Shown in pieces: positions 13,253 to 44,239 of a stretch of DNA of 57,434 nucleotides. Numbering within the stretch: the stretch's first letter is position 1; the number at the start of each line of letters is the position of its first letter. A program made the translations under genes and the position numbers. The notes under the pieces were generated by a model that did not search any database, was not told the DNA's origin, and worked only from the letters and a program-made list of their open reading frames with translations. Origin of the DNA: Levilinea saccharolytica (GTDB taxonomy: Bacteria; Chloroflexota; Anaerolineae; Anaerolineales; Anaerolineaceae); assembly GCF_001306035.1 (NCBI RefSeq), contig NZ_LGCM01000021.1:1-57434 (forward strand), read 5' to 3'.

Positions 13253-13606
13253 TTAGAACAAACCCCAATCGTCGGCCAGCCCTTCTTCCATCATCGAAAA
13301 ATCCCACACATCCAGACCCAGGTCCACATGGGTGGGGCGCTCTAAAATCGATTCAGCCTTTTGGCGGGTGCTTTCGATCATGGCTGGGCCGTAAGGGCAA
13401 AAGGGGGTGGTGAGGATCATGCGAATCAGGGCGTGATCGGCTTCGATAGTGACATCGCGAATAAGGCCAAGCTGAATGATATTGAGGCCAATTTCGGGAT
13501 CAATCACTTCCCGCAGTCCATCGCGCAGAGCGGCGCAAAGTTCGGGATGTTCACTTTCAGCCTGCCAAACAGGCTGGTTGGATCCTGGGGGGGTGGGGGT
13601 GGTCAT
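13253..13606 (-). CDS. MIP18/DUF59 (PaaD-like) iron-sulfur assembly factor, 117 aa
   Basis: The core LREVIDPEIGLNIIQLGLIRDV is the DPE-x-G-x-N-x-x-x-L-G signature of MIP18/SufT-type proteins. TTPFCPYGPAM carries the reactive cysteine (usually TxxxCP). The C-terminus DLGLDVWDFSMMEEGLADDW is acidic. Such proteins help deliver or mature Fe-S clusters. The start ATG (13604-13606) overlaps the stop of the upstream SufR-like gene (ATGA), so the two are translationally coupled. Co-transcription with a Fe-S-sensing repressor and the neighbouring suf operon supports this role. Confidence 0.88.
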   Translation of the reverse strand: MTTPTPPGSNQPVWQAESEHPELCAALRDGLREVIDPEIGLNIIQLGLIRDVTIEADHALIRMILTTPFCPYGPAMIESTRQKAESILERPTHVDLGLDVWDFSMMEEGLADDWGLF

Positions 13607-14262
13607 GCGGGTTGATCCTCCGAGGGAGCAAGATCTGAAACGATATAGGTGCAGTGCTGGTCGCCGCGCAGCAGGCATTGGACCTTGGCGGTGGGGATGG
13701 CCAGGACGGTGGAGATGAGGGTTTGATCCAGGGAGCAGACTTCGGGGTGCTGTTGGCCCACCTGGTAGTAGGGGCAGCTAATTTCGTGGATCAAATAATG
13801 ATCGCCTTGTTTTTCCCATTCCACGGAAAAACCTTCTTGAGAAAGCACTTCTTTGATCACTTCCAATTTCTCTTCAATGGGCAGGGCCTGCACTTTTTGG
13901 GCGATATCTGTGCCCAGGTCGGTGGCCATCTGGACGAAGAGGCGGTCCACCACCTCGGACGGCAGGGTTTCTTTGAGCTGATCCAGCAAACGGTTGGTGA
14001 GGCGAAGGTAGCGGGTGGGGAAGCGCTCCATGCCTTTTTCGGTGAGAGAGTACACCAGGCGAGGGCGGCCCACACCGTGGCGTTCTTCTTCAACGGCAAT
14101 CAGCCCATCGCCCTGCAAATTGCTGAGGTGGTGGCGGACGGAAATACCGTTAATGCCCACCGCATCAGCCAATTCGTTGATGCTGCAGCGCGGGTGATTA
14201 AGCAGGGTGTGTAAGATTCGGTCTCGGGTGCTTTTCATCGGGACATCACGTATGCTATCCAT
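13603..14262 (-). CDS. SufR-like winged-helix iron-sulfur sensing repressor
   Basis: The N-terminal winged helix (KSTRDRILHTLLNHPRCSIN, ADAVGINGISVRHHLSNLQ) is of the DeoR/ArsR-like SufR type. The C-terminal half has the cysteine set expected for a [4Fe-4S] sensor: CPYYQVGQQHPEVC and CLLRGDQHC. In cyanobacteria and actinobacteria SufR represses its own gene and suf when its cluster is intact. Two starts are plausible, MDSIRDVP (14262, with AGAAGG upstream) and MKSTRD (14238). The gene has a strong promoter overlapped by an inverted repeat that reappears in front of sufC, so autoregulation and suf control are likely (inference from sequence). Confidence 0.88.
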   Translation of the reverse strand: MDSIRDVPMKSTRDRILHTLLNHPRCSINELADAVGINGISVRHHLSNLQGDGLIAVEEERHGVGRPRLVYSLTEKGMERFPTRYLRLTNRLLDQLKETLPSEVVDRLFVQMATDLGTDIAQKVQALPIEEKLEVIKEVLSQEGFSVEWEKQGDHYLIHEISCPYYQVGQQHPEVCSLDQTLISTVLAIPTAKVQCLLRGDQHCTYIVSDLAPSEDQPA

Positions 14263-14325: not shown

Positions 14326-14355
14326 AGTATATCACAGGCGTTTCAATAATGTCAA
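14326..14355 (-). promoter_or_regulatory. Promoter of the SufR-like gene
   Basis: On the minus strand there is a perfect TTGACA (14350-14355), an 18-nt spacer and TATACT (14326-14331). The operator-like inverted repeat abuts and overlaps the -35 box. Confidence 0.8.
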
Positions 14356-14381
14356 TATATAAGATTTATATCCTAAATATT
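14354..14381. promoter_or_regulatory. Predicted SufR-type operator, site A
   Basis: The imperfect inverted repeat AATATATA-N12-TAAATATT overlaps the -35 box of the SufR-like promoter. The same half-sites and the same 12-nt spacing occur at 18620-18647. It differs from the cyanobacterial CAAC-N6-GTTG box, so it would be a lineage-specific operator. Confidence 0.65.
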
Positions 14382-14435
14382 CGCTGAGCGGGAGAGTGGG
14401 TACAGCTGCACGGAATCAATTTGGATATCTCACGT

Positions 14436-14441
14436 TATAAT
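14436..14441 (+). promoter_or_regulatory. -10 element of the large surface-protein gene
   Basis: TATAAT lies 38 nt upstream of the GTG start at 14479. It is the only recognisable promoter element there. Confidence 0.4.
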
Positions 14442-14478
14442 ACGTACAGGTGCAATTCTTTCGAAGGTTCAAAGGCAG

Positions 14479-17400
14479 GTGGATTTGAATTCGATTGGGC
14501 GAATTTTACTGGCGGCTGCCGCGGCGTTGGGGGGACTGTGGTTTCAGGGGGCGACCCGCGGGCTAACCCAAACCAAAGCGGTGAGCTGGGTGGTTTACGC
14601 GGCGGAAAACGCCGGAGGCACAGATCTGTATTGGGCGCGCTCCGACGGGGGGACAGCTGTGGCCCTGACAGATACCCCGGCGCGTGAAGATTTGCCGCGC
14701 TTTTCACCGGACGGTACGCGCCTGGCCTTTTTGGAGGGGCAAGGGGAGGCCGCTGGGCTGGTAGTGATGGACGCCGGAGGTCAAAACCGGCTGCGGCTGA
14801 GCCCCGACACATTAACGGTGCGGGATTTGGCCTGGTCGCCGGACGGCCAGCAGCTGGCCTTTTCAGCGGCGCCTATTGCGGGCGGTAAGCTGCGCGTTTA
14901 CACCGCTGCGGCGGACGGCAGCGGCAGTCTGAAGGCCCACAGCGCGGAAAATGAGGCCTGTTGGCAGCCGGTTTGGTCGCCGAGGGGAGACCAACTGGCG
15001 GCGATCTGCGCTCCGTTTGGCCCTTCTGAAACCCCTTACCCTGAAAGTCAGGTGGTGCTGATCCAAACGCAAAGCGGTGAACGCCGCGCGCTGATTTCGC
15101 AGCTAGGGACGGCCCAGTTTTCACCCGCCTGGTCGCCGGACGGGAAACGCATCGCTTATGCGGCTGCGGGCGGCGGGCAAAGCGGCATCCATGTAGTGGA
15201 GACGGCGGAAGGCAGCGCGGATCTGGCTTTGAGCGCGCACGAGGGGGATCATTCGCCGCAGTGGTCACCGGATGGAAGCTGGATTGCCTTTGCCTCAGAC
15301 CCCGCTATGGGTCAGCGGGCTTTGTTTACCCCGCAGCCCGACGCTCAAGCTGAGATCTATTTGGTGCGGCCGGACGGCAGCGGGCTGCTGCTGCTGGTTT
15401 CAGGTTTGCCGTTTGCAGATTTCTGCTGGACAGCGGAGGGAGATCGGATTGTTTTCACGCAGCGGCCTGACGCTCAGACGGGCAATGCGGGATTAAACCT
15501 GGCTTCGGTGCGCACTGACGGATCGCAGATGCAGTGGATCACCTCGGTGGAGGGGGCGGCCTTTAGCCCCAGCGCTGCGGCGGGCGGAGGGCTGGAGCCG
15601 AGCCTGACTCTGGAGGGGGTGGTGCGAACAGCGGATGGGCAGCCCCTGGCGGGAGTGAGCGTGCATTTGGCGGATTCTGAGCCGGCCCTGACCGGTGCGG
15701 ACGGACGTTTCAGCTTCCAGCATTTGAGCGCGGGCAGCTACGCGCTGCGGCCGGTGTTGAGCGGGTATCAATTTCAACCGTCAGAGCAGCAGGTGAATTT
15801 GCGCCAGGGGGGTGAGGCGGTGGTGTTTGAGGCTGCCCAGGCGGACGGGCTGTTTATCTCTCATATTCAAGCGATTCAAGCGGTGGACGGAGAAGGGCAG
15901 CTGACGGCGGGCAAGCCCACTGTGGTGCGCGTGTATGTGGACTGCGGCGAGGGCTGTACCGAGCTGGCGGGGGTCACAGGGACGCTGCGGGGGGTGAGCG
16001 GAGAAGGACGCGATTTGGGGATGCTGATGCCGGAACCGGTCAGCATCACGGCTTTCCATGAAGATTGGACGCAGCAGCAGGGCGACCCGCAGCGCAGTCT
16101 GAATTTCCTGCTGCCTGAGGAGTGGCTGAGCGGTACCCTGCGGCTGACTGCGGACGTGGGGGGCACACAGCGCGAAACGAGCCTGACCTTTGCGCCGGGG
16201 ATCCGACTGCGGCTGGCCTGGTTTGATCTGGGATACCGCCCAGCGGCGGGAGCCGGCACGCCGGAACCCGCGCAACAGACCCTGCTGCCAGACCGCAGCG
16301 CAGCTCAAGAGGCTGTGCGCGATTTGTGGGATATGCTGCCGTTGGCTCCGGATGGGTTGACCTATGTGTACCAGCCGGGGATTTTTCAGACCTTTGAAAG
16401 CACCCTGGATTGCCCGGCTTTGAGCGGCGGCAGCGGCTGCCCGGCGGTGACGGATTATCTGCTGACCCTGCGGCTGCTGTATGAGCGCACGGCCCGTGAA
16501 GGACGGTGGGCAGGTGGGGAAGCCCCCGGTCGGGTGATGGCCTGGACGCACCCGGATACACAAAACGACGGGCAGTGCAGCCTGGCGGATACGGGCTGGT
16601 CGCACGGCGATACGCTGCCTTCGATCGGAAGAGTGGCTGTGGGCGCTTCCACCTGCACCTTTAACCTGAAAACGATGGATTCCGGCCAGACGCTGACGCG
16701 CGAAATGGGCCATTTGCTGAACGCGAACGGGCTGCGCCCAACGGCTGCCAAAAACCGTCTGGCTTGCTGGTGGGGCGAGGCGAACACCACAGGTACCCTG
16801 GGAGGCTGGGGAGCGCGGGTGAGCGCATCGGGCTTTGAGCTGTTTGACCCGGCGGCCACTTTTGATGTGTTGTCGTACTGCACACCGGCCTGGGTTTCTC
16901 CGGCGACGGCGCAGGCTTTTGGTACCGGCTTTGCCAATCAGGATGTGTTCCTTTCGGGCGGAGATCTTCCCGTAGGCGGGCGGCTGGCGGCGGGGCTGCC
17001 GCGAGACATGCGCGCGCCCGCGGAAGGGCAGCTGCTGACGGCTGCGGTGATCCGACAATCGGGGCAAGCGGAGATTCTGCCGGCTTTCCGCATCGCCTCA
17101 CGCATGCCGCCGCTGGTGGGGGGTGAAACGGGGACCTGCCTGCAGGTGCGCGACGCAGAAGAAAACGTGCTGGAGCAGATGTGCCAGGAATTGGATTACC
17201 TGCATCCCACCCTGGGGCAAAACATCGGCGTGGATTTTATCACGGCCAGTTTTACCGCGGACACAGAGCTGGCGGCTTCTTTGGTGGTGGTGCGGGGTGA
17301 AACGGAATTGGCCCGGCGGACGGCTTCGGCTAACCCGCCGATGCTGACCCTGCTGGAACCAGCAGGCGGAGAAGCCTGGGCGGACGGGCAAACGGCCTGG

Positions 17401-18558
17401 GTGCGCTGGCAGGCTTCGGACGCGGATGGGGACGCCCTGAGCTACACGGTTTCGTATAGCCAGGATGAAGGACAGACATGGAACCCCATGTCGACGGGGA
17501 TCCGCGCCAGTGAACTGGCTGTGGACCCCGCCCGGCTGCCGGGGGGAAAGCCGCTTTGGCTGCGGGTGGACGCCAGCGACGGCTTCTACAGTACCTCGGC
17601 CCAGTCGGCTGGAGCGGTGACGGTGACGGATCACGCGCCGGTAGCTGTCATTCTTTCGCCGTTGGATGGGGGCGGCGCCTCAACTCAGGGGGTCTGGCTG
17701 CGCGGGTACGCATACGACCTGGAGGATGGGGCCATCACCGGCGAACGGATGGAATGGAATTCCAATCTGGACGGTGTGCTGGGCAGCGGGCCGCAAGTTT
17801 TTGCGCGACTGAGCGAAGGGGTGCATGATATTTCGCTGACGGCATCTGACGCAGCGGGAACCTACCGCGGGGTGAGCGTGCGCGTGGACGTGCGCCAGGC
17901 GGCCGCGGCTCCCACCGAAGATGCGCCGGCTGGTGCGGTAGGTGAGCCGACTCCGGCTACTGCCCCTGGCATTGTGCTGCCGGGGCTGCCGAATTTGAAT
18001 ATGAATACGCCGGTGTTGTGGTTGGTTCTGGTCGGGCTGATTTTGCTGCTGTTGGTGCTGCTGTTGTGGGTGCTGATTCGGCGGGGGATTCGCCGCCGCG
18101 AACGCGAGACGGAAGCCCGCCTGGAGGCTGCCGCGGCCACTGAAAGCCAGCCGGAAGGGTTGGAAGGACGACAAGCGCAGTTTGCTCCCACGCCAGAGCC
18201 TGCACCGGAGCAGGCTGCGGTGGTGACCCCGGCGCCCGCGCCGCCCGCAGCGCCAAAGACGGAAGAACGTATGGCGGCGCGTCCGCCGCAGGTGGTGCCG
18301 CGCGAGCGCGTGGATGGGGTGGATCTGTTGGCACAGGGGATTCAGCAGGTGAAGGGCGGCAACATCCGCCAGGGGTACGCAATTTTACGCAAGGTACTGG
18401 AACAGCAGCCGGACAACGCGGATGCGTGGCTGTGGCTGGGGTGGGCGGCTGCCCGCCAGGGGGATCGGGCGACGGCGCAGCGCTGCTTCTTACGGGCGGC
18501 AAAGCTGGGGCACGGCGCAGCAGAGCAGGCCCTGGCCTGGCTGGAACGACAGGCTTAA
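14479..18558 (+). CDS. Large membrane-anchored protein: TolB-like repeats, decayed metallopeptidase domain, Ig-like domains, TPR
   Basis: A 1359-aa mosaic. After a hydrophobic N-terminus (about 8-25) come five or more TolB/PD40 repeats, each with a W/F-S-P-D-G motif (residues about 70-300). Then a carboxypeptidase-regulatory-like domain (SLTLEGVVRTADGQPLAGVS), a region resembling surface metallopeptidases, and Ig/cadherin-like domains (DADGDALSYTVSYSQDEGQTW). A membrane helix (about 1175-1200, VLWLVLVGLILLLLVLLLWV) is followed by RRGIRRRER, a Pro/Ala linker and a cytoplasmic TPR pair (GYAILRKVLEQQPDNADAWL). The expected zinc motif HExxH is replaced by TREMGHLLN, so catalysis is unlikely. Start GTG, weak Shine-Dalgarno. 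Function unknown. Confidence 0.85.
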   Translation: MDLNSIGRILLAAAAALGGLWFQGATRGLTQTKAVSWVVYAAENAGGTDLYWARSDGGTAVALTDTPAREDLPRFSPDGTRLAFLEGQGEAAGLVVMDAGGQNRLRLSPDTLTVRDLAWSPDGQQLAFSAAPIAGGKLRVYTAAADGSGSLKAHSAENEACWQPVWSPRGDQLAAICAPFGPSETPYPESQVVLIQTQSGERRALISQLGTAQFSPAWSPDGKRIAYAAAGGGQSGIHVVETAEGSADLALSAHEGDHSPQWSPDGSWIAFASDPAMGQRALFTPQPDAQAEIYLVRPDGSGLLLLVSGLPFADFCWTAEGDRIVFTQRPDAQTGNAGLNLASVRTDGSQMQWITSVEGAAFSPSAAAGGGLEPSLTLEGVVRTADGQPLAGVSVHLADSEPALTGADGRFSFQHLSAGSYALRPVLSGYQFQPSEQQVNLRQGGEAVVFEAAQADGLFISHIQAIQAVDGEGQLTAGKPTVVRVYVDCGEGCTELAGVTGTLRGVSGEGRDLGMLMPEPVSITAFHEDWTQQQGDPQRSLNFLLPEEWLSGTLRLTADVGGTQRETSLTFAPGIRLRLAWFDLGYRPAAGAGTPEPAQQTLLPDRSAAQEAVRDLWDMLPLAPDGLTYVYQPGIFQTFESTLDCPALSGGSGCPAVTDYLLTLRLLYERTAREGRWAGGEAPGRVMAWTHPDTQNDGQCSLADTGWSHGDTLPSIGRVAVGASTCTFNLKTMDSGQTLTREMGHLLNANGLRPTAAKNRLACWWGEANTTGTLGGWGARVSASGFELFDPAATFDVLSYCTPAWVSPATAQAFGTGFANQDVFLSGGDLPVGGRLAAGLPRDMRAPAEGQLLTAAVIRQSGQAEILPAFRIASRMPPLVGGETGTCLQVRDAEENVLEQMCQELDYLHPTLGQNIGVDFITASFTADTELAASLVVVRGETELARRTASANPPMLTLLEPAGGEAWADGQTAWVRWQASDADGDALSYTVSYSQDEGQTWNPMSTGIRASELAVDPARLPGGKPLWLRVDASDGFYSTSAQSAGAVTVTDHAPVAVILSPLDGGGASTQGVWLRGYAYDLEDGAITGERMEWNSNLDGVLGSGPQVFARLSEGVHDISLTASDAAGTYRGVSVRVDVRQAAAAPTEDAPAGAVGEPTPATAPGIVLPGLPNLNMNTPVLWLVLVGLILLLLVLLLWVLIRRGIRRRERETEARLEAAAATESQPEGLEGRQAQFAPTPEPAPEQAAVVTPAPAPPAAPKTEERMAARPPQVVPRERVDGVDLLAQGIQQVKGGNIRQGYAILRKVLEQQPDNADAWLWLGWAAARQGDRATAQRCFLRAAKLGHGAAEQALAWLERQA

Positions 18559-18573
18559 CCGCTGATTTTTACA

Positions 18574-18608
18574 CCAACCGCCGCAGAAGACCGCGGCGGT
18601 TGGTTCTT
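18574..18608 (+). terminator. Terminator after the surface-protein gene
   Basis: An 11-bp stem CCAACCGCCGC/GCGGCGGTTGG (18574-18584 with 18593-18603) is followed by TTCTTT. It separates this gene from the suf promoter. Confidence 0.85.
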
Positions 18609-18619
18609 TAAGATATTAG

Positions 18620-18647
18620 AATATATAAGAATATTATAATAAATATT
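18620..18647. promoter_or_regulatory. Predicted SufR-type operator, site B
   Basis: AATATATA-N12-TAAATATT, the same half-sites and spacing as at 14354-14381, ends inside the -35 box of the sufC promoter. Relative to transcription it holds exactly the same position as site A does at the regulator's promoter. Confidence 0.68.
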
Positions 18648-18675
18648 GACCGAATTACCTCTATTATGATATAAT
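18646..18675 (+). promoter_or_regulatory. Promoter of the suf operon
   Basis: TTGACC (18646-18651), an 18-nt spacer and a perfect TATAAT (18670-18675) give a strong promoter about 65 nt upstream of sufC. Confidence 0.82.
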
Positions 18676-18748: not shown

Positions 18749-19528
18749 ATGTCCGTTCTGGAGATTCGCAATTTACATGTCAGCATCGAAGGAAAAGAAA
18801 TCCTCAAGGGATTGGATTTAACTGTAAAATCCGGCGAGGTGCATGCCATCATGGGCCCCAACGGCACGGGGAAATCCACGCTTTCGTACACGATCATGGG
18901 CCATCCGGCCTATGAGGTGACAGACGGCGAGATTTTGTTTAACGGCCAGAACATTCTAGAGATGGAAACGGACGAACGCTCTCGGCTGGGGCTTTTCCTG
19001 GCGTTCCAGTACCCGGTGGCGATCCCGGGGGTGACGCTGGCGAACTTCCTGCGCACCGCCCTGAACGCGCGCCGTAAGGCAGTTAACCCGGAAGATAAGG
19101 GCATGCCTATTCCCGAATTCCGCAAGATGCTCAAAGAAAAGATGGATATGCTGCGGATGGATCACGCCTTTGCCGGACGTTACTTAAACGACGGCTTTTC
19201 GGGCGGTGAGAAGAAGCGCGCCGAAATTTTGCAGATGGCGACACTGAAGCCGGAAATCGCCGTGTTGGATGAGACCGACTCAGGGCTGGATATTGACGCG
19301 CTGCGGATTGTCTCCGAAGGCGTGAACACGCTTCGCGGAAAAGACCTGGGCGTGATGGTGATCACCCATTACCAGCGCATCCTGAATTACATCCAGCCGG
19401 ATTTTGTGCACGTGATGTTGGGCGGGCGCATTGTGGAATCGGGCGGCCCGGAACTGGCCCTGAGCCTGGAAGAGCACGGCTACGAATGGGTGCGTGAAAA
19501 GTACGAAGGCGAAGCGGTTAACGGCTAA
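18749..19528 (+). CDS. sufC: Fe-S cluster assembly ATPase SufC
   Basis: The cytoplasmic ABC-type ATPase of the SufBCD scaffold. 259 residues with Walker [10 protein letters not shown], the SufC-specific [14 protein letters not shown]-loop region, signature [13 protein letters not shown] and Walker [17 protein letters not shown], plus switch histidine in VITHYQRIL. The SufC-typical E-K-K-R after the signature motif separates it from transport ATPases. AAAAGGAG precedes the ATG. It is the first gene of the suf operon and directly behind the predicted SufR-controlled promoter. Confidence 0.98.
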
Positions 19529-19564
19529 ATTACTGGTATGTGACCTGACTGCCTGGAGGCGATG

Positions 19565-20977
19565 ATGAGTTCAAACCCGCAAGCCGAATATTTAGAGAAG
19601 CTGGGTGAGTATAAATACGGGTTCAGCAACCCCGACACCTCGGTGTTTAACACCGGCAAAGGCCTGAATGCGGAAGTTGTGGCGCAGATTTCGGCCATGA
19701 AGGGCGAGCCGCAGTGGATGTTGGATTTTCGCCTGAAGGCCCTGGCCCATTTTCAGGCGCGGCCCATTCCCACCTGGGGGCCAGATTTATCGAGCCTGAA
19801 TCTGGACGATTTGATTTATTATGTGAAGCCCTCGGACAAGGAAGGCCGTTCCTGGGACGATGTGCCGGATGATATTAAGAAGACCTTTGACCGCCTGGGC
19901 ATCCCCGAAGCCGAGCAGCACTTCTTGGCTGGGCTGGGGGCGCAGTACGAGTCGGAGATGGTGTATCACCGCGTGCAGGAGCACCTGGAAAAAGCGGGCG
20001 TGATCTTTGTGAGCATTGAGGACGGCCTGCGCCAGTATCCTGACCTGTTCCGCGAACATTTTGGCACGATCATCCCCATTGAGGACAACAAATTTGCGGC
20101 CTTGAACAGCGCGGTATGGTCGGGCGGTTCGTTCGTGTATGTGCCCAAGGGGGTCAAGGTGGATTTGCCGCTGCAGGCATATTTCCGCCTGAACGTGGCC
20201 AACATCGGGCAGTTTGAGCGCACCCTGATCATCGCGGATGAAGGCGCGCAGCTGCACTATGTGGAAGGCTGCACGGCCCCGCAGTACACCACCGATTCAT
20301 TCCACAGCGGTGTGATTGAAATTGTGGTGAAGAAGGGCGCGCGCGTGCGCTACTCCACCATTCAGAACTGGTCGACCAACGTTTATAACCTGGTGACCCA
20401 GCGCGCCATCGTCCACGAAGAAGGCACGATGGAATGGGTGGACGCCAACCTGGGTTCGAAGGTGACGATGAAATACCCCTCCTGCTACCTGGTGGGGCGC
20501 GGCGCGCACGGGGAAATCCTTTCGATGGCCTTTGCTGGGCCGGGTCAGCAGCAGGACGCGGGCGGTAAAATGGTGCATCTGGCACCCGATACGAGCAGCA
20601 AAATCACCTCGAAATCCATCAGCCGCGGCGGCGGGCGGTCTTCGTACCGCGGGCTGCTGAAAGTACACCGCGATGCGGTCAATTCGCGTTCGAATGTGGT
20701 CTGCGATGCGCTGCTGTTGGATCCACAGTCGCGTTCGGATACCTATCCGTATATTGAGATTGATCAAGAGCGGGTCAATATTGGGCACGAAGCGTCTGTG
20801 TCGAAGGTAGGCGAGGAACAGCTCTTTTACCTGATGAGCCGCGGGTTGAGCGAGGAAGAAGCGACCACGATGGTGGTTTCTGGTTTTATTGAACCGCTGG
20901 TCAAGGAACTGCCCATGGAATATGCCGTGGAAATGAACCGCCTGATCCAGCTCCAAATGGAAGGCTCCATCGGTTGA
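19565..20977 (+). CDS. sufB: Fe-S cluster scaffold protein SufB
   Basis: 470-aa scaffold subunit with a right-handed beta-helix. Seen: [24 protein letters not shown]-like [56 protein letters not shown] with the conserved Cys, and the C-terminal [20 protein letters not shown]. Two ATG codons lie in tandem (19562, 19565). GGAGGCG ends at the first, so the second has the better spacing. Follows sufC by 36 nt and precedes sufD by 18 nt. Confidence 0.97.
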
Positions 20978-20995: not shown

Positions 20996-22345
20996 ATGGC
21001 AGACACCCCTAAAATTGTTCGAGGCGTGCGCCGCAGCGCGGCCGCCCAAGATTTTGTTTTTACAGAAAAAGACCTTCCTGCTGGCGGGCCGAACTTTCTG
21101 CAAGCCTTCCGGCAAAACGCCTGGACGGCGTACCAATCCCTGCCCATTCCAACCGTCTCTGAAGAGGCCTGGCGCCGCACGGATTTGAAAGCCTTGCAGC
21201 CGCAGCAGTTCCGCATTCCCGCGGAAAACGCGTATCTGGACCTGGAGCCGGCCCCGGCGGAGCTTTTGCGCCCGTTGACAGCCAACCAACACGGCGGTCA
21301 GGTGATGCTGATGGCGGGCGGGTCGCATGTGACGCTGGACCCGGAGGTGGCAGCGCAAGGCGTGATCTTCACCGATCTGCGCACGGCCCAGGCGCAGCAC
21401 CCTGAGCTGTTGGAAAAAGTCATCGGCAAGGTTGTGCGCCCGGGCGAAGGCAAATTCGCGGCGATGGCCGCGGCGCTGGCGCAGAACGGCCTGCTGCTGT
21501 ATGTGCCGCGCGGCGTGCGTGTGGAACAGCCGCTGCACAGCCTGCTGTGGGGCGCGGGCGAAGGTCTGGCGCATTTCTCACACCTGCTGGTGCACCTGGA
21601 AGAAGGCGCTGCGGTGACGTATGTGCACGAGGCAGCTTCCCCCGAGGGCAGCCTCCAGGCGGCCATGCACGCCGGTATTGTGGAACTGTATGTGGGGCCG
21701 GGCGCATCGCTGACCTTTGTGGAGCTGCAATCCTGGGGCGAGAATATCTACAATTTCAGCCATGAGCGCGCGCGGGTGGACCGCGACGGCACGCTGGACT
21801 GGGTTTTCGGCGCGGTGGGCAGCCATCTGACCAAGAATTTCTCCGACCTGGAACTGGCTGGGCCGGGGAGTGTGGGCAAGATGTCGGGCTTCTACTTCAC
21901 CGACCATGATCAGCATCTCGATCACGATACCCAGCAGAACCATCTGGCTCCGCATACCACCAGCGACCTGCTCTTCAAGGGCGCGCTGCTGGATCGCAGC
22001 CGCTCGGTGTGGCAAGGCATGATTTATGTGGCCCCGGGAGCGGCCAAGACCGACGGGTATCAGGCGAACCGCAATCTGGTGCTGAGTGAGCACGCCCGCG
22101 CCGATTCGATCCCTGGTCTGGAGATTTTGGCGGACGACGTGCGCTGCACGCACGGCGCCACGGTGGGCCGGTTGGATGAAGAGCCCGTGTTCTATCTGCT
22201 CAGCCGCGGTATCCCCCGACGGATGGCTGAACGGCTGATTGTGGAAGGCTTTTTTGACCCGATTATGCAGCGGATTCCTTTTGAGGGTGTGCGCGCCCGG
22301 TTCCAGGCGGCCATTCAAAAGAAGATGCAGGCGATGGGTGACTGA
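20996..22345 (+). CDS. sufD: Fe-S cluster assembly protein SufD
   Basis: 449-aa paralogue of SufB that completes the SufBC2D complex. Typical segments are LLYVPRGVRVEQPLHSLLWG, RARVDRDGTLDWVFGAVGSH, FYFTDHDQHLDHDTQQNHLA, LSEHARADSIPGLEILADDVRCTHGAT with the conserved Cys/His near the SufB interface, and FYLLSRGIPRRMAERLIVEG. An AAGGACAG site lies upstream of the ATG. A strong hairpin follows. Confidence 0.95.
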   Translation: MADTPKIVRGVRRSAAAQDFVFTEKDLPAGGPNFLQAFRQNAWTAYQSLPIPTVSEEAWRRTDLKALQPQQFRIPAENAYLDLEPAPAELLRPLTANQHGGQVMLMAGGSHVTLDPEVAAQGVIFTDLRTAQAQHPELLEKVIGKVVRPGEGKFAAMAAALAQNGLLLYVPRGVRVEQPLHSLLWGAGEGLAHFSHLLVHLEEGAAVTYVHEAASPEGSLQAAMHAGIVELYVGPGASLTFVELQSWGENIYNFSHERARVDRDGTLDWVFGAVGSHLTKNFSDLELAGPGSVGKMSGFYFTDHDQHLDHDTQQNHLAPHTTSDLLFKGALLDRSRSVWQGMIYVAPGAAKTDGYQANRNLVLSEHARADSIPGLEILADDVRCTHGATVGRLDEEPVFYLLSRGIPRRMAERLIVEGFFDPIMQRIPFEGVRARFQAAIQKKMQAMGD

Positions 22346-22725: not shown

Positions 22726-22764
22726 TCTCTTTTACCGCATTTGAGTCAACAGTCGAGGATTTCG

Positions 22765-24003
22765 GTGAACTCTTCCATCCCCTTTGATTTGCAGCGCATT
22801 CGCTCCGATTTCCCAACCCTTCAGCGCCAGATTCACAACGGCGTGCCCTTGATCTATCTGGATTCAACCGCGACCGCCCAAAAACCGCAGTCCGTGCTGA
22901 CGGCGATGGATGAGTATTACCGCCGTTCGAATGCCAATATTCACCGCGGAGTGCACACCCTGGCGGAGGAAGCCACGGCGGCCTATGAAGGCGCACGCCA
23001 AAGCATCGCCCAGTTCATTGGAGCGCGTACCGCGCGCGAGGTGATCTTTGTGCGCAACACCACAGAGGCGATCAACCTGGTGGCGATGACCTGGGGGCGG
23101 ACGCAGCTTCAGACGGGTGATCTGGTGATTTTAACTGAGATGGAGCACCACTCCAACCTGGTTCCGTGGCAGATGTTGGCGGCGGAGCGGGGTTTGCGCC
23201 TGGAATTCATCCCGGTGACGGACGACGGCCTGCTGGATCTGGCGGTGTACCAGCAGCTGCTGGAGCAGGGGCCCAAACTGGTGGCTTTTACGCACATGTC
23301 CAACGTGCTGGGGACGATTAACCCGGCCAAAGAGATGATCGCGGCGGCACATCAGGCGGGGGCATTGGCTTTGGTGGACGGGGCGCAGAGCGTGCCGCAT
23401 TTACCGGTGGATGTGCGCGACCTGGACGCGGACTTTTTGGCCTTCTCAGCGCACAAGATGGTGGGGCCGACCGGTATCGGTGTGCTGTACGGCAAAGAAG
23501 CTTTGTTGAACGCCATGCCGCCGTTCATGGGCGGTGGGGACATGATCAAGAAAGTGACCCTGCGCACGTTTGCGGCTAACACCCTGCCGCATAAATTCGA
23601 GGCGGGGACGCCCGCCATCGCCGAAGGGATTGGCTTTGGGGCGGCGGTGGATTATCTCAAAACCGTGGGCATGCAGGCGGTGGAAGAACACGAACAAACC
23701 ATCATCCGCTACGCCCTGGAGCGCTTTGCCGAAATCAGCGGGGTGACGGTGATCGGCCCGGCGGCGGAACACAAAGGGGCGGTGTTGGCCTTCACCATGC
23801 AGGAAGCGCACCCTCACGACGTGGCGCAATTATTAGACCGCGAAGGCATCGCCGTGCGGGCGGGACATCACTGCGCCATGCCGCTGCACGAACGCTTTAA
23901 GCTCCCGGCCACCACACGCGCCAGTTTTTACCTGTATAACACGATCGAAGAAGTGGACCGCCTGGCAGAAGGGGTAGAGAAGGTTAAGCGCATGTTTGCG
24001 TAG
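22765..24003 (+). CDS. sufS: Cysteine desulfurase, SufS type
   Basis: PLP enzyme that extracts sulfur from cysteine as a persulfide for SufBCD. 412 residues from GTG 22765, which has GAGGATTT upstream; an in-frame TTG 24 nt earlier has no site. Family features: YLDSTATAQKPQSVL, NIHRGVHTLAEEAT, EMEHHSNLVPWQ, the PLP lysine in FSAHKMVGPTGIGVLYGK, and the catalytic cysteine in RAGHHCAMPLH. The latter is the class II (SufS/CsdA) form, expected to work with SufU or SufE. SufU follows immediately. Confidence 0.97.
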   Translation: MNSSIPFDLQRIRSDFPTLQRQIHNGVPLIYLDSTATAQKPQSVLTAMDEYYRRSNANIHRGVHTLAEEATAAYEGARQSIAQFIGARTAREVIFVRNTTEAINLVAMTWGRTQLQTGDLVILTEMEHHSNLVPWQMLAAERGLRLEFIPVTDDGLLDLAVYQQLLEQGPKLVAFTHMSNVLGTINPAKEMIAAAHQAGALALVDGAQSVPHLPVDVRDLDADFLAFSAHKMVGPTGIGVLYGKEALLNAMPPFMGGGDMIKKVTLRTFAANTLPHKFEAGTPAIAEGIGFGAAVDYLKTVGMQAVEEHEQTIIRYALERFAEISGVTVIGPAAEHKGAVLAFTMQEAHPHDVAQLLDREGIAVRAGHHCAMPLHERFKLPATTRASFYLYNTIEEVDRLAEGVEKVKRMFA

Positions 24004-24020
24004 GGGCAAAGGAGTTGGTT

Positions 24021-24431
24021 ATGGACGACATGTACCGCGAAATCATCATCGAACGCTATAAAGACCCCCATTACCGCGGGACCCTCGATCCGCATGATTA
24101 CACCTTTGAGGATGAAAATCCCCTGTGCGGCGACCAGATTCGGGTGGATGTGCGCGCGGACGAGGCAGGCATGATCACCGAGGCGGCTTTCAGCGGGCAC
24201 GGCTGCGCCATTTCTCAGGCATCGGCAGACCTTTTGATCGAGTCCATCCTGGGCAAAAACGTAGAAGACGTGAAGAAAATGACCAAGCAGGATATTCTAG
24301 ACCTGCTGGGGATTGAATTGGGGCCGGTGCGCCTGAAATGTGCGCTGCTTTCCCTGAAGGTGGTGAAGGCGGGACTGTACGGCCTGGGTGAAGCCAGCGA
24401 TGCTCTGGTGGACGACGACGAGGAGTTTTAA
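24021..24431 (+). CDS. sufU: SufU-type zinc-dependent sulfurtransferase
   Basis: A 136-aa IscU-fold protein. Cysteines lie in PLCGDQI, GHGCAISQAS and RLKCALL, the three ligand positions of SufU. The insertion between the second and third cysteines (LLGIELGPVR...) is also typical of SufU, as opposed to IscU. In Gram-positive systems SufU accepts persulfide from SufS in a Zn-ligand swap rather than acting as scaffold. GGAG 6 nt before ATG 24021 makes that start better than the upstream in-frame TTG. Confidence 0.94.
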   Translation: MDDMYREIIIERYKDPHYRGTLDPHDYTFEDENPLCGDQIRVDVRADEAGMITEAAFSGHGCAISQASADLLIESILGKNVEDVKKMTKQDILDLLGIELGPVRLKCALLSLKVVKAGLYGLGEASDALVDDDEEF

Positions 24432-24433
24432 GC

Positions 24434-24772
24434 ATGGCGGATGAGCACAAAGCGGAGTACACGTTCTACGGCGTGGCAGATGTGGACGAATTACCCAATG
24501 GGGAGCGGCTGTATCTGGAAATTGACGGCCAGCCGGTGGTGGTGTTTAACATCGCGGGGTACTTTTACGCGATTTCGGATGTGTGTACGCACGATATGGG
24601 CCCGCTGGGGGACGGCGAGGTGGAAGGGCATGAGATTGTTTGCCCGCGGCATGGAGCGCGCTTTGATATCCGCACCGGGGAGGTGAAGAAACTTCCGGCG
24701 GTGGGGGATATTGCGGCCTATCCAGTGCAGGTGGTGGAGGGCGAGATCCAGATCGGAATTCGTCACAGTTAA
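24434..24772 (+). CDS. Rieske-type [2Fe-2S] ferredoxin, 112 aa
   Basis: A small soluble Rieske protein with ligands in DVCTHDMGPLGDG (C-x-H) and VCPRHGARFDIRTG (C-x2-H). It resembles ferredoxin subunits of non-heme oxygenases and the Rieske proteins often found as the last gene of suf operons in Gram-positives and Chloroflexota (remembered). It starts 2 nt after the sufU stop, so it is certainly co-transcribed. It could donate electrons during cluster assembly or report cluster status; neither is shown. Confidence 0.93.
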   Translation: MADEHKAEYTFYGVADVDELPNGERLYLEIDGQPVVVFNIAGYFYAISDVCTHDMGPLGDGEVEGHEIVCPRHGARFDIRTGEVKKLPAVGDIAAYPVQVVEGEIQIGIRHS

Positions 24773-42802: not shown

Positions 42803-44239
42803 CTAATCCATGTTGCGGCTGAGGGTTTGAATGAGCTGTCCCTCAGGATCGAGGATTTCGATTTCCATCGGCATTTGGCCCACGGCATGGGTGGAGCAGG
42901 AAAGGCAGGGGTCGTGGGCGCGGATGGCAGCCTCGACGCGGTTGAGCAGGCCTTCGCGGATGGGGTTGCCGTTGATGTAGGTTTTGGCCACCGAATCCAC
43001 CGATTCGCTCATGGCCCAGTTGTTGTGGCCGGTGGCAACGATGAGGTTGACTTTGGTGATCTGACCCGTTTCATTGGCCCAGTAGTGATGGAAGAGCGTG
43101 CCGCGCGGGGCTTCGATGACGCCCACACCTTCGCCGCGGAAATCGTGGCGCGTGTTGAGGATGTCTTTGCCGAGCAGGTCGGGATCATCCAATAAGATGC
43201 GTACGCGTTCGAGAGCAAACAGGGTTTCGATCAAGCGGGCGTAGTGGTAATAGAGGGTATTTTCCACCGGCAGACCGCCGTTGAGCGACTTCCAGATTTT
43301 CATCTCTTCGCCGGCCAGCGGGGTTTCGATGGTGTCCGCGGCGTTGAGGCGGCCCAGCGGACCCACGCGGTACACGCCGTTGGGCCAGCCCATCTTCTTG
43401 TAATAGGGGAACTTGAGGTAGGACCAGGATTCGACGTGTTCGGCGATGTAATCCAGATAGTTGCGGCCGTCAAAATGCTCCAGCTGCTGGCCTTTTTGAT
43501 CCAGGAGGCGAATCTGGCCGTCGTAGAGTTCCAGGCCGTTGCCAGGGGTGACCATACCAAAGTAACCAGTCTTGAGAACGGCGAACTTTTCGATATCTTC
43601 GCGGTTCTTTTCGGCCCAGCCTTTCATAATGCTGATACCGAGCTGGGTGGTGGCGACGGCTTCATCCAAACCAGCGAGGATGCCGTTGCGGTCTTCGACG
43701 GAGAGAGCCTTGTTGACGCCGCCAGGGACGGCAAAGGTGGGGTGAATGCGGCGGCCGCCGACGCGGAAGATGATATCCTGCCCAAACTTGCGCAGGTTGA
43801 TGGCTTTGAGTGTGAGGGCGGGGTCGGCCTGGAGCAGACCGACAACGTTACGCACGGCGGGGTCGGCATCGAATCCCAGGATCAGGTCAGGCCCGGCCAG
43901 CTCAAAGAAGTGCATGCCGTGGCTTTGGATAATCTGACCCATGTGCATCAGGTCGCGCAGCAGGGTGGCCGTGCGAGGGGGCGGGCAGCCCAGGACCTCA
44001 TCACCGGTTTTGGCGGCAGCCAGGTGGTGGCTGACGGGGCAAATGCCGCAGATGCGCGGGGTGATGTAAGGCATTTCAAAAACCATGCGCCCTTCGCAGA
44101 ATTTTTCAAAGCCGCGGAATTCATTCACATGGAAATAGGCGTGGTTGACCGTGCCGTCATCATTCATGCGAATGGTAATTTTGGCGTGGCCTTCGATACG
44201 GGTTACGGGTTCAATGGTAATTTTTTCAGTAGTCATCAT
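42803..44239 (-). CDS. hoxH: NAD-linked [NiFe] hydrogenase large subunit HoxH
   Basis: 478 aa carrying the Ni-Fe active site. L1 motif [20 protein letters not shown] and L2 motif [15 protein letters not shown] (C446 and C449 if numbered from the first ATG). The 27 residues after H451 form the peptide removed by the maturation protease encoded next to it. The pattern HxH-like [20 protein letters not shown] and the L2 sequence place it with soluble bidirectional (group 3d) hydrogenases. Two ATG codons are in tandem (44239, 44236). GGAGGGC is so close that the second has better spacing. Confidence 0.96.

Follow-up and report, generated by a model that had tools for sequence, protein, structure and literature searches.

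At this locus in Levilinea, a genus of the Anaerolineae within the Chloroflexota, two promoters that stand on opposite sides of a long gene carry the same inverted repeat, which raises the question of what the repeat does and how it came to be present twice. By the window we mean the whole stretch of DNA analyzed, 57,434 nt in length. In it, sufR and sufT lie on the minus strand and sufC, sufB, sufD, sufS, sufU and a Rieske-type gene follow one another on the plus strand. We consider it highly likely that the repeat, which spans 28 bp, is the operator through which the neighboring SufR-like regulator silences sufR and sufCBDSU, and that this operator was duplicated in the window's genus. The features concerned are these:

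13253-13606, minus strand: SufT-like (FeS_assembly_P) gene, its start codon overlapping the sufR stop as ATGA
13603-14238, minus strand: sufR-like regulator gene, 211 aa, with a winged helix-turn-helix (wHTH) and cysteines 155/168/188/196
14326-14331, minus strand: sufR promoter -10, TATACT, TG-extended, spacer 18
14350-14355, minus strand: sufR promoter -35, TTGACA, overlapping the operator end by TT
14354-14381, plus-strand sequence AATATATAAGATTTATATCCTAAATATT: operator copy 1, at the sufR promoter (own-genome profile E 8.3e-4)
14479-18558, plus strand: 1359-aa gene between sufR and sufC (PD40 propeller, CarboxypepD_reg, TPR), also present in congener G001
18620-18647, plus-strand sequence AATATATAAGAATATTATAATAAATATT: operator copy 2, at the sufC promoter (own-genome profile E 0.085)
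18646-18651, plus strand: sufC promoter -35, TTGACC
18670-18675, plus strand: sufC promoter -10, TATAAT, TG-extended, spacer 18
18749-19528, plus strand: sufC (TIGR01978, 367 bits, cut-off 212.8)
19562-20977, plus strand: sufB (TIGR01980, 722 bits, cut-off 346.4)
20996-22345, plus strand: sufD (TIGR01981, 265 bits, cut-off 222)
22741-24003, plus strand: sufS (TIGR01979, 594 bits, cut-off 475.1)
24015-24431, plus strand: sufU (TIGR01994, 107 bits, cut-off 92.5)
24434-24772, plus strand: Rieske-type ferredoxin gene (PF00355, 72 bits)

Read along the minus strand from 14381 to 14326, the sufR-like promoter runs AATATTTA-N12-TATATATTGACA-18 nt-TATACT, and the sufC promoter, on the plus strand at 18620-18675, runs AATATATA-N12-TAAATATTGACC-18 nt-TATAAT. 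As the initial annotation of this DNA had described, both copies of the repeat terminate in the TT of a TTGAC, and the spacer is 18 nt at both promoters. These two -35/-10 pairs ranked highest among the six sigma-70-like matches between 14200 and 18800, each with 11 of 12 letters and a TG ahead of the -10 (shuffles gave a mean of 1.2 matches). The ATGA at 13603-13606 joins the sufR stop to the sufT start, and so the two genes would probably be repressed together. The repeat is A+T-rich throughout, in a window whose G+C content is 56-65% in 4-kb steps. With up to one mismatch allowed, AATATNTA-N12-TANATATT matched the window twice, both times exactly, where 100 shuffles led us to expect 0.00 matches. 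Across the 4.23-Mb genome, up to two mismatches gave eight places (two exact, none with one mismatch and six with two); as the reversed pattern found six places in the same scan, only the two exact sites stand out.

In a plus-strand comparison, the two 28-mers share 23 of 28 letters, and all differences fall within the N12, as had been proposed. They thus have one polarity on the chromosome and opposite polarities relative to their own promoters. The likeness in layout described earlier is therefore not simply that of a copied promoter.

The protein encoded beside the first copy was matched by the SufR equivalog profile TIGR02702 over profile positions 1-208 of 208, at 87.9 bits (E 7.5e-25), about half of the curated cut-off of 178.8 bits. 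HTH_24 and HTH_5 exceeded their cut-offs in its N-terminal region, and an AlphaFold model (pLDDT 86.6, pTM 0.62) likewise has a wHTH at the N-terminus. Besides two RNA polymerase entries, PDB searches by sequence and by fold (best 50 matches for the latter) returned only wHTH-type matches, and the nearest chains to the model, from the PadR-DNA entry 5x11 and from 2p4w, reached a TM by query length of at most 0.33 among those 50. Among homologues, C155 and C168 are present in 53 of 53, C196 in 52 of 53 and C188 in 47 of 53. The spacing CX12CX27C of cysteines 155, 168 and 196 is that of cysteines 203, 216 and 244 in the mycobacterial SufR, Rv1460 (PMC6034842). Cyanobacterial SufR cysteines are printed in two ways, as C-X12-C-X13-C-X14-C and as C164/C171/C206, and the CX12CX19CX7C of the window protein fully matches neither. 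The regulator gene adjoins suf genes in relatives, and is parted from them by a single gene in the window; the SufR of 'Levilinea sp.' JARKPO010000035.1 is 96% identical to that of the window. We write 'SufR-like' because two features of the family, the TIGR02702 cut-off and the CAAC-N6-GTTG operator, are lacking; the protein very probably works like SufR.

If the repeat is an operator, then it should accompany sufR in related genomes. Of 61 genomes, namely the window's own and others from its genus, family and order, 55 have a SufR homologue, and in most of these relatives sufR and sufC are head-to-head neighbors. The best SufR locus was taken from each of the 54 genomes besides the window's own. 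When the regions upstream of sufR at 52 order-level loci were searched de novo for a palindromic motif (the set excludes the window, the congener and a stub of 54 nt, and includes the wrongly bounded L096, nearly a whole contig), the result was AATATTTAAGATAATTATCTTAAATATT, with a likelihood of 866 from 40 starts, compared with 84-96 in three shuffles of 15 starts each. This motif is the repeat of the initial annotation, with further letters conserved inside the N12. Across 39 aligned sites, A11 and T18 never vary, A17 is kept in 38 and G10 in 31; the N12 is where the window copies differ but is not free to vary. Symmetric positions showed no covariation within sites beyond column make-up (9.36 of 14 compared with 9.42).

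A score of at least 15 was reached in 50 of 55 rows, that is, in 50 of the 53 readable order-level regions. The rows below that score are the readable L079, L087 and L100, with scores among them of 7.9, -5.6 and -10.7, and the cut contigs L092 and L096. All 13 order-level genomes outside the training set scored at least 24.8 (L107-L111, L135, L136, L167-L171, L173), 10 of them belonging to f12, a family represented in the training set by G047 and G060. By comparison, of 2253 control windows of 300 bp drawn from the window and the order-level loci, one scored at least 15, and it adjoins a distant sufR relative (L101); none of the 147 control windows with at least 60% AT did so. The motif is thus neither scattered at random through AT-rich DNA nor absent upstream of sufR in relatives, the two outcomes against which the initial annotation had set its proposal. 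The operator is real, is widespread in the order and has a clear candidate regulator.

Beyond the order the motif fades. Elsewhere in the class, 12 of 22 sufR upstream regions scored at least 15, the 22 being those of the closest SufR among 87 class-level genomes matched, and a profile search of 21 class-level genomes gave three matches at E<=0.5, of which a single one, in G110, lies at sufR. Beyond the class, seven loci of one family, f69 (L175-L179, L184, L185), in which sufR is followed by sufC and a sufB/D homologue, have another 28-bp palindrome before sufR, AATAAA...TTTATTgac (for example, AATAAAAAAGG...CTTTTTTATT); it runs into a TTGACA -35, so that the footprint is the same and the letters are different. 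Neither palindrome was found at the remaining phylum-level loci read (L180-L183).

Where sufR and sufC share one site, its layout is gtcAATATT...AATATTgac. Both of its ends contribute the TT of a TTGAC that faces outward, and the site is thus a core that the two back-to-back promoters have in common. GAC follows 37 of 50 sufR-side and 40 of 46 sufC-side sites, and a -10 lies 16-19 nt away at 41 of 50 and 41 of 46, respectively, most commonly TATACT (35) or TATAAT (32). Automatic scoring gave 34 genomes with a shared site, 21 of which have GAC on both sides, and 12 with two sites; it called G005, G013 and G055 single, which are two-copy by eye, and G006 double. A single bound dimer could in principle block both divergent promoters.

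Two sites, one per promoter, are present in the window, its congener G001 and 12 other genomes, parted by a gene or merely by a longer gap. We compared the copies in 13 genomes chosen by eye (the window and the 12, with G001 dropped as a near copy), which are not 13 separate events, as L093 and L095 represent one genus. The GAC that serves the copy's own gene is present in 25 of 26 copies and that on the unused side in none of 26, whereas the letters of the operator arm are kept at 115 of 130 positions on the unused side and 126 of 130 on the promoter side. Motif polarity, which was regained in 25 of 29 single sites in a leave-one-out analysis, holds for all 13 sufC copies and for all but one of the 13 sufR copies. 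The copies thus face opposite ways relative to their own promoters, as expected from a duplicated shared operator, and this pattern in the sequences points to such a duplication behind the two-copy state.

Alternatively, the two copies in the window may be independent operators that converged, with no split of a shared one. Consistent with this, copies within one genome are barely closer to each other than copies from different genomes (mean agreement 21.5 compared with 20.0 of 28, and 23 for the window pair), and the sufC copy of the window matches that of L049 at 27 of 28 positions. The low within-genome agreement implies either that most splits are old or that copies drift fast. Convergence does not predict the opposite orientation kept in 25 of 26 copies, nor the two copies of L095 (6670-6697 and 7993-8020), which are identical over 28 of 28 positions although they lie 1.3 kb apart in unlike flanks, and we regard it as unlikely. 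One genome, G035, was set aside as ambiguous, since its first site has retained the GAC at either end and another site lies behind it; there, at L062:6225-6320, tandem operator-bearing promoters appear to read toward sufC, and the one nearer sufR keeps a sufR-facing -35.

How often did the shared operator split? On a SufR+SufC+SufB tree of 46 genomes, with 14 double, 29 single and the ambiguous G035, G010 and G006 left uncounted, the single and double states need at least 10 changes, four of which are forced by the starred branches. Shuffled labels needed about 12, and 57 of 500 shuffles were as low as observed, so the label is hardly clustered. The tree, which carries no direction of gain or loss, thus supports four independent changes and no more. 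The single shared site would be the older state. On balance, we favor a reading in which the Anaerolineae SufR lineage has a 28-bp operator of its own that also forms the shared core of a bidirectional promoter, and in which operator duplication has split this unit time and again, with each daughter promoter keeping its copy in the old orientation and losing the -35 it no longer needs.

To ask what else the operator may control, we used a 28-position profile built from 39 sites; as all of these come from suf/sufR loci, its informative part is the absence of matches elsewhere. Run on the window's own genome, it returned the two window sites and no others at E<=10 (150 of 475 first-pass candidates were scored, so weak sites may escape). 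At E<=0.05 it gave 28 rows, or 27 places, in 26 of the 61 genomes, all at suf; the profile is insensitive, with 35 of 61 genomes giving no row at this threshold though most have a site by the upstream scan. At these thresholds, it found no targets beyond sufR and the suf operon. The exact pattern occurs at 15 places in the 61 genomes, 10 at suf and five elsewhere (L102-L106), and since the reversed pattern occurs at four, we take these five as chance. One of the five, an operator-like site at L106:7063-7090 (G019) with a score of 29.3, lies away from suf with no Fe-S gene recognized nearby, and may be chance or an extra target.

These matches also bear on the identity of the regulator, as the palindrome could be bound by another iron or Fe-S regulator, of the Fur or Rrf2/IscR type, with sufR adjacent through synteny. 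Some class-level sites look Fur-box-like by eye, such as L123 (TATGATAATAATGATAATAATA), and an Rrf2 gene adjoins sufC in G045. The genomes without SufR that we examined number 26, comprising all six from the order-level set and the 20 listed of 55 from the class-level set. Eight of the 26 have sufC at E<=1e-60, seven with a readable upstream region, and no site scoring at least 15 was found at sufC in these seven (best scores -20.8 to 10.5). Three of the seven (G018, G045 and G050) are from the order, and the other four are from class groups in which SufR-bearing genomes are themselves often without a strong site. Weak TIGR02702 matches occur in G020 (28.3 bits) and G050 (26.5 bits), and at the G050 sufC a poor palindrome-like stretch (score -5.5) runs into TTGAC. 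In G045, a match of 16.4 lies 1.2 kb from sufC, beyond sufT (L160). There, the sufR slot between sufT and sufC is taken by an Rrf2-family gene (L160:894-1358, plus strand; PF02082, 124 bits), whose start carries the palindrome AAAAGATGTATAATTTATGCATCTTTT; regulator and operator have apparently been swapped. A Fur or Rrf2 regulator is hard to square with the lack of any profile match outside suf in 61 genomes and with a site missing at sufC in the seven SufR-less genomes read, three of them from the order, even in G045 with its Rrf2 gene, and we judge it distinctly improbable. Less likely still is the notion that the repeat, with ends that form the TT of the -35s and an A+T-rich make-up, is a mere promoter feature (an AT-rich UP element with two back-to-back -35s), as the promoterless sides in the two-copy genomes have no GAC yet keep their arm letters (0 of 26 and 115 of 130), the AT-rich controls contain no site, and none was found at the seven SufR-less sufC promoters.

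The preferred reading, an operator of the SufR-like protein, can be set beside systems already described. The known SufR operator is CAAC-N6-GTTG (PMC8593673, PMC11995493, PMC13421787). It was found at none of 47 sufC upstream regions and at one of 101 sufR upstream regions, that of the wrongly bounded L096; the window contains it once, at 43036, where 1.09 copies are expected, and at neither promoter. The earlier statement that the motif is unlike the cyanobacterial SufR box is thus borne out. Like the system proposed here, Synechocystis SufR combines a DNA-binding domain with Fe-S cysteines, is encoded divergently from sufBCDS, and acts as repressor and autoregulator through two sites, one per promoter (PMC6034842, PMC8593673, PMC13421787). 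Its operator is CAAC-N6-GTTG, whereas here a 28-bp A+T-rich palindrome is merged with the -35s and most relatives have a single shared site. In Mycobacterium, unlike here, sufR opens the suf operon, and in S. avermitilis the CAAC-N6-GTTG operator overlaps the -10 (PMC11995493). RisR of Myxococcus is similar in that one repressor controls suf (and isc) from a palindromic promoter site, but it belongs to the Rrf2 family and its motif is GAC-N7-GTC (PMC9973013). The letters and geometry of the operator are new, and its kind is familiar. Among the literature matches listed, we found no published Chloroflexi SufR operator; the RegPrecise Chloroflexi collection, of five genomes (PMC3840689), may hold a suf regulog. 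Nothing relevant to operator duplication was among the literature matches listed.

Binding by SufR, the repression it would exert, the sensing of a cluster and the course of the split are inferred. A SufR dimer in its Fe-S-cluster form would bind the 28 bp and cover the -35 hexamers that begin in the operator's outermost TT, keeping RNA polymerase off both sufR, as autoregulation, and sufCBDSU. Loss of the cluster, through iron or sulfur shortage or oxidation, would free the operator. In most relatives in the order, a single operator would act on both divergent promoters together. In the genus of the window, it would have been duplicated and the promoters parted, so that the 1359-aa gene now lies between and each promoter has one copy.

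With this finding, suf control in another phylum gains an operator that can be tested, and it seems that the SufR box is not used universally. The genomes form a comparative series in which evolution has separated the constraint on the operator from that on the promoter and, if the repeated splitting is true, a natural series from a shared operator to a two-site regulon. Pairs of site and regulator from about 50 genomes could be used to map residues of SufR onto the bases that they read.
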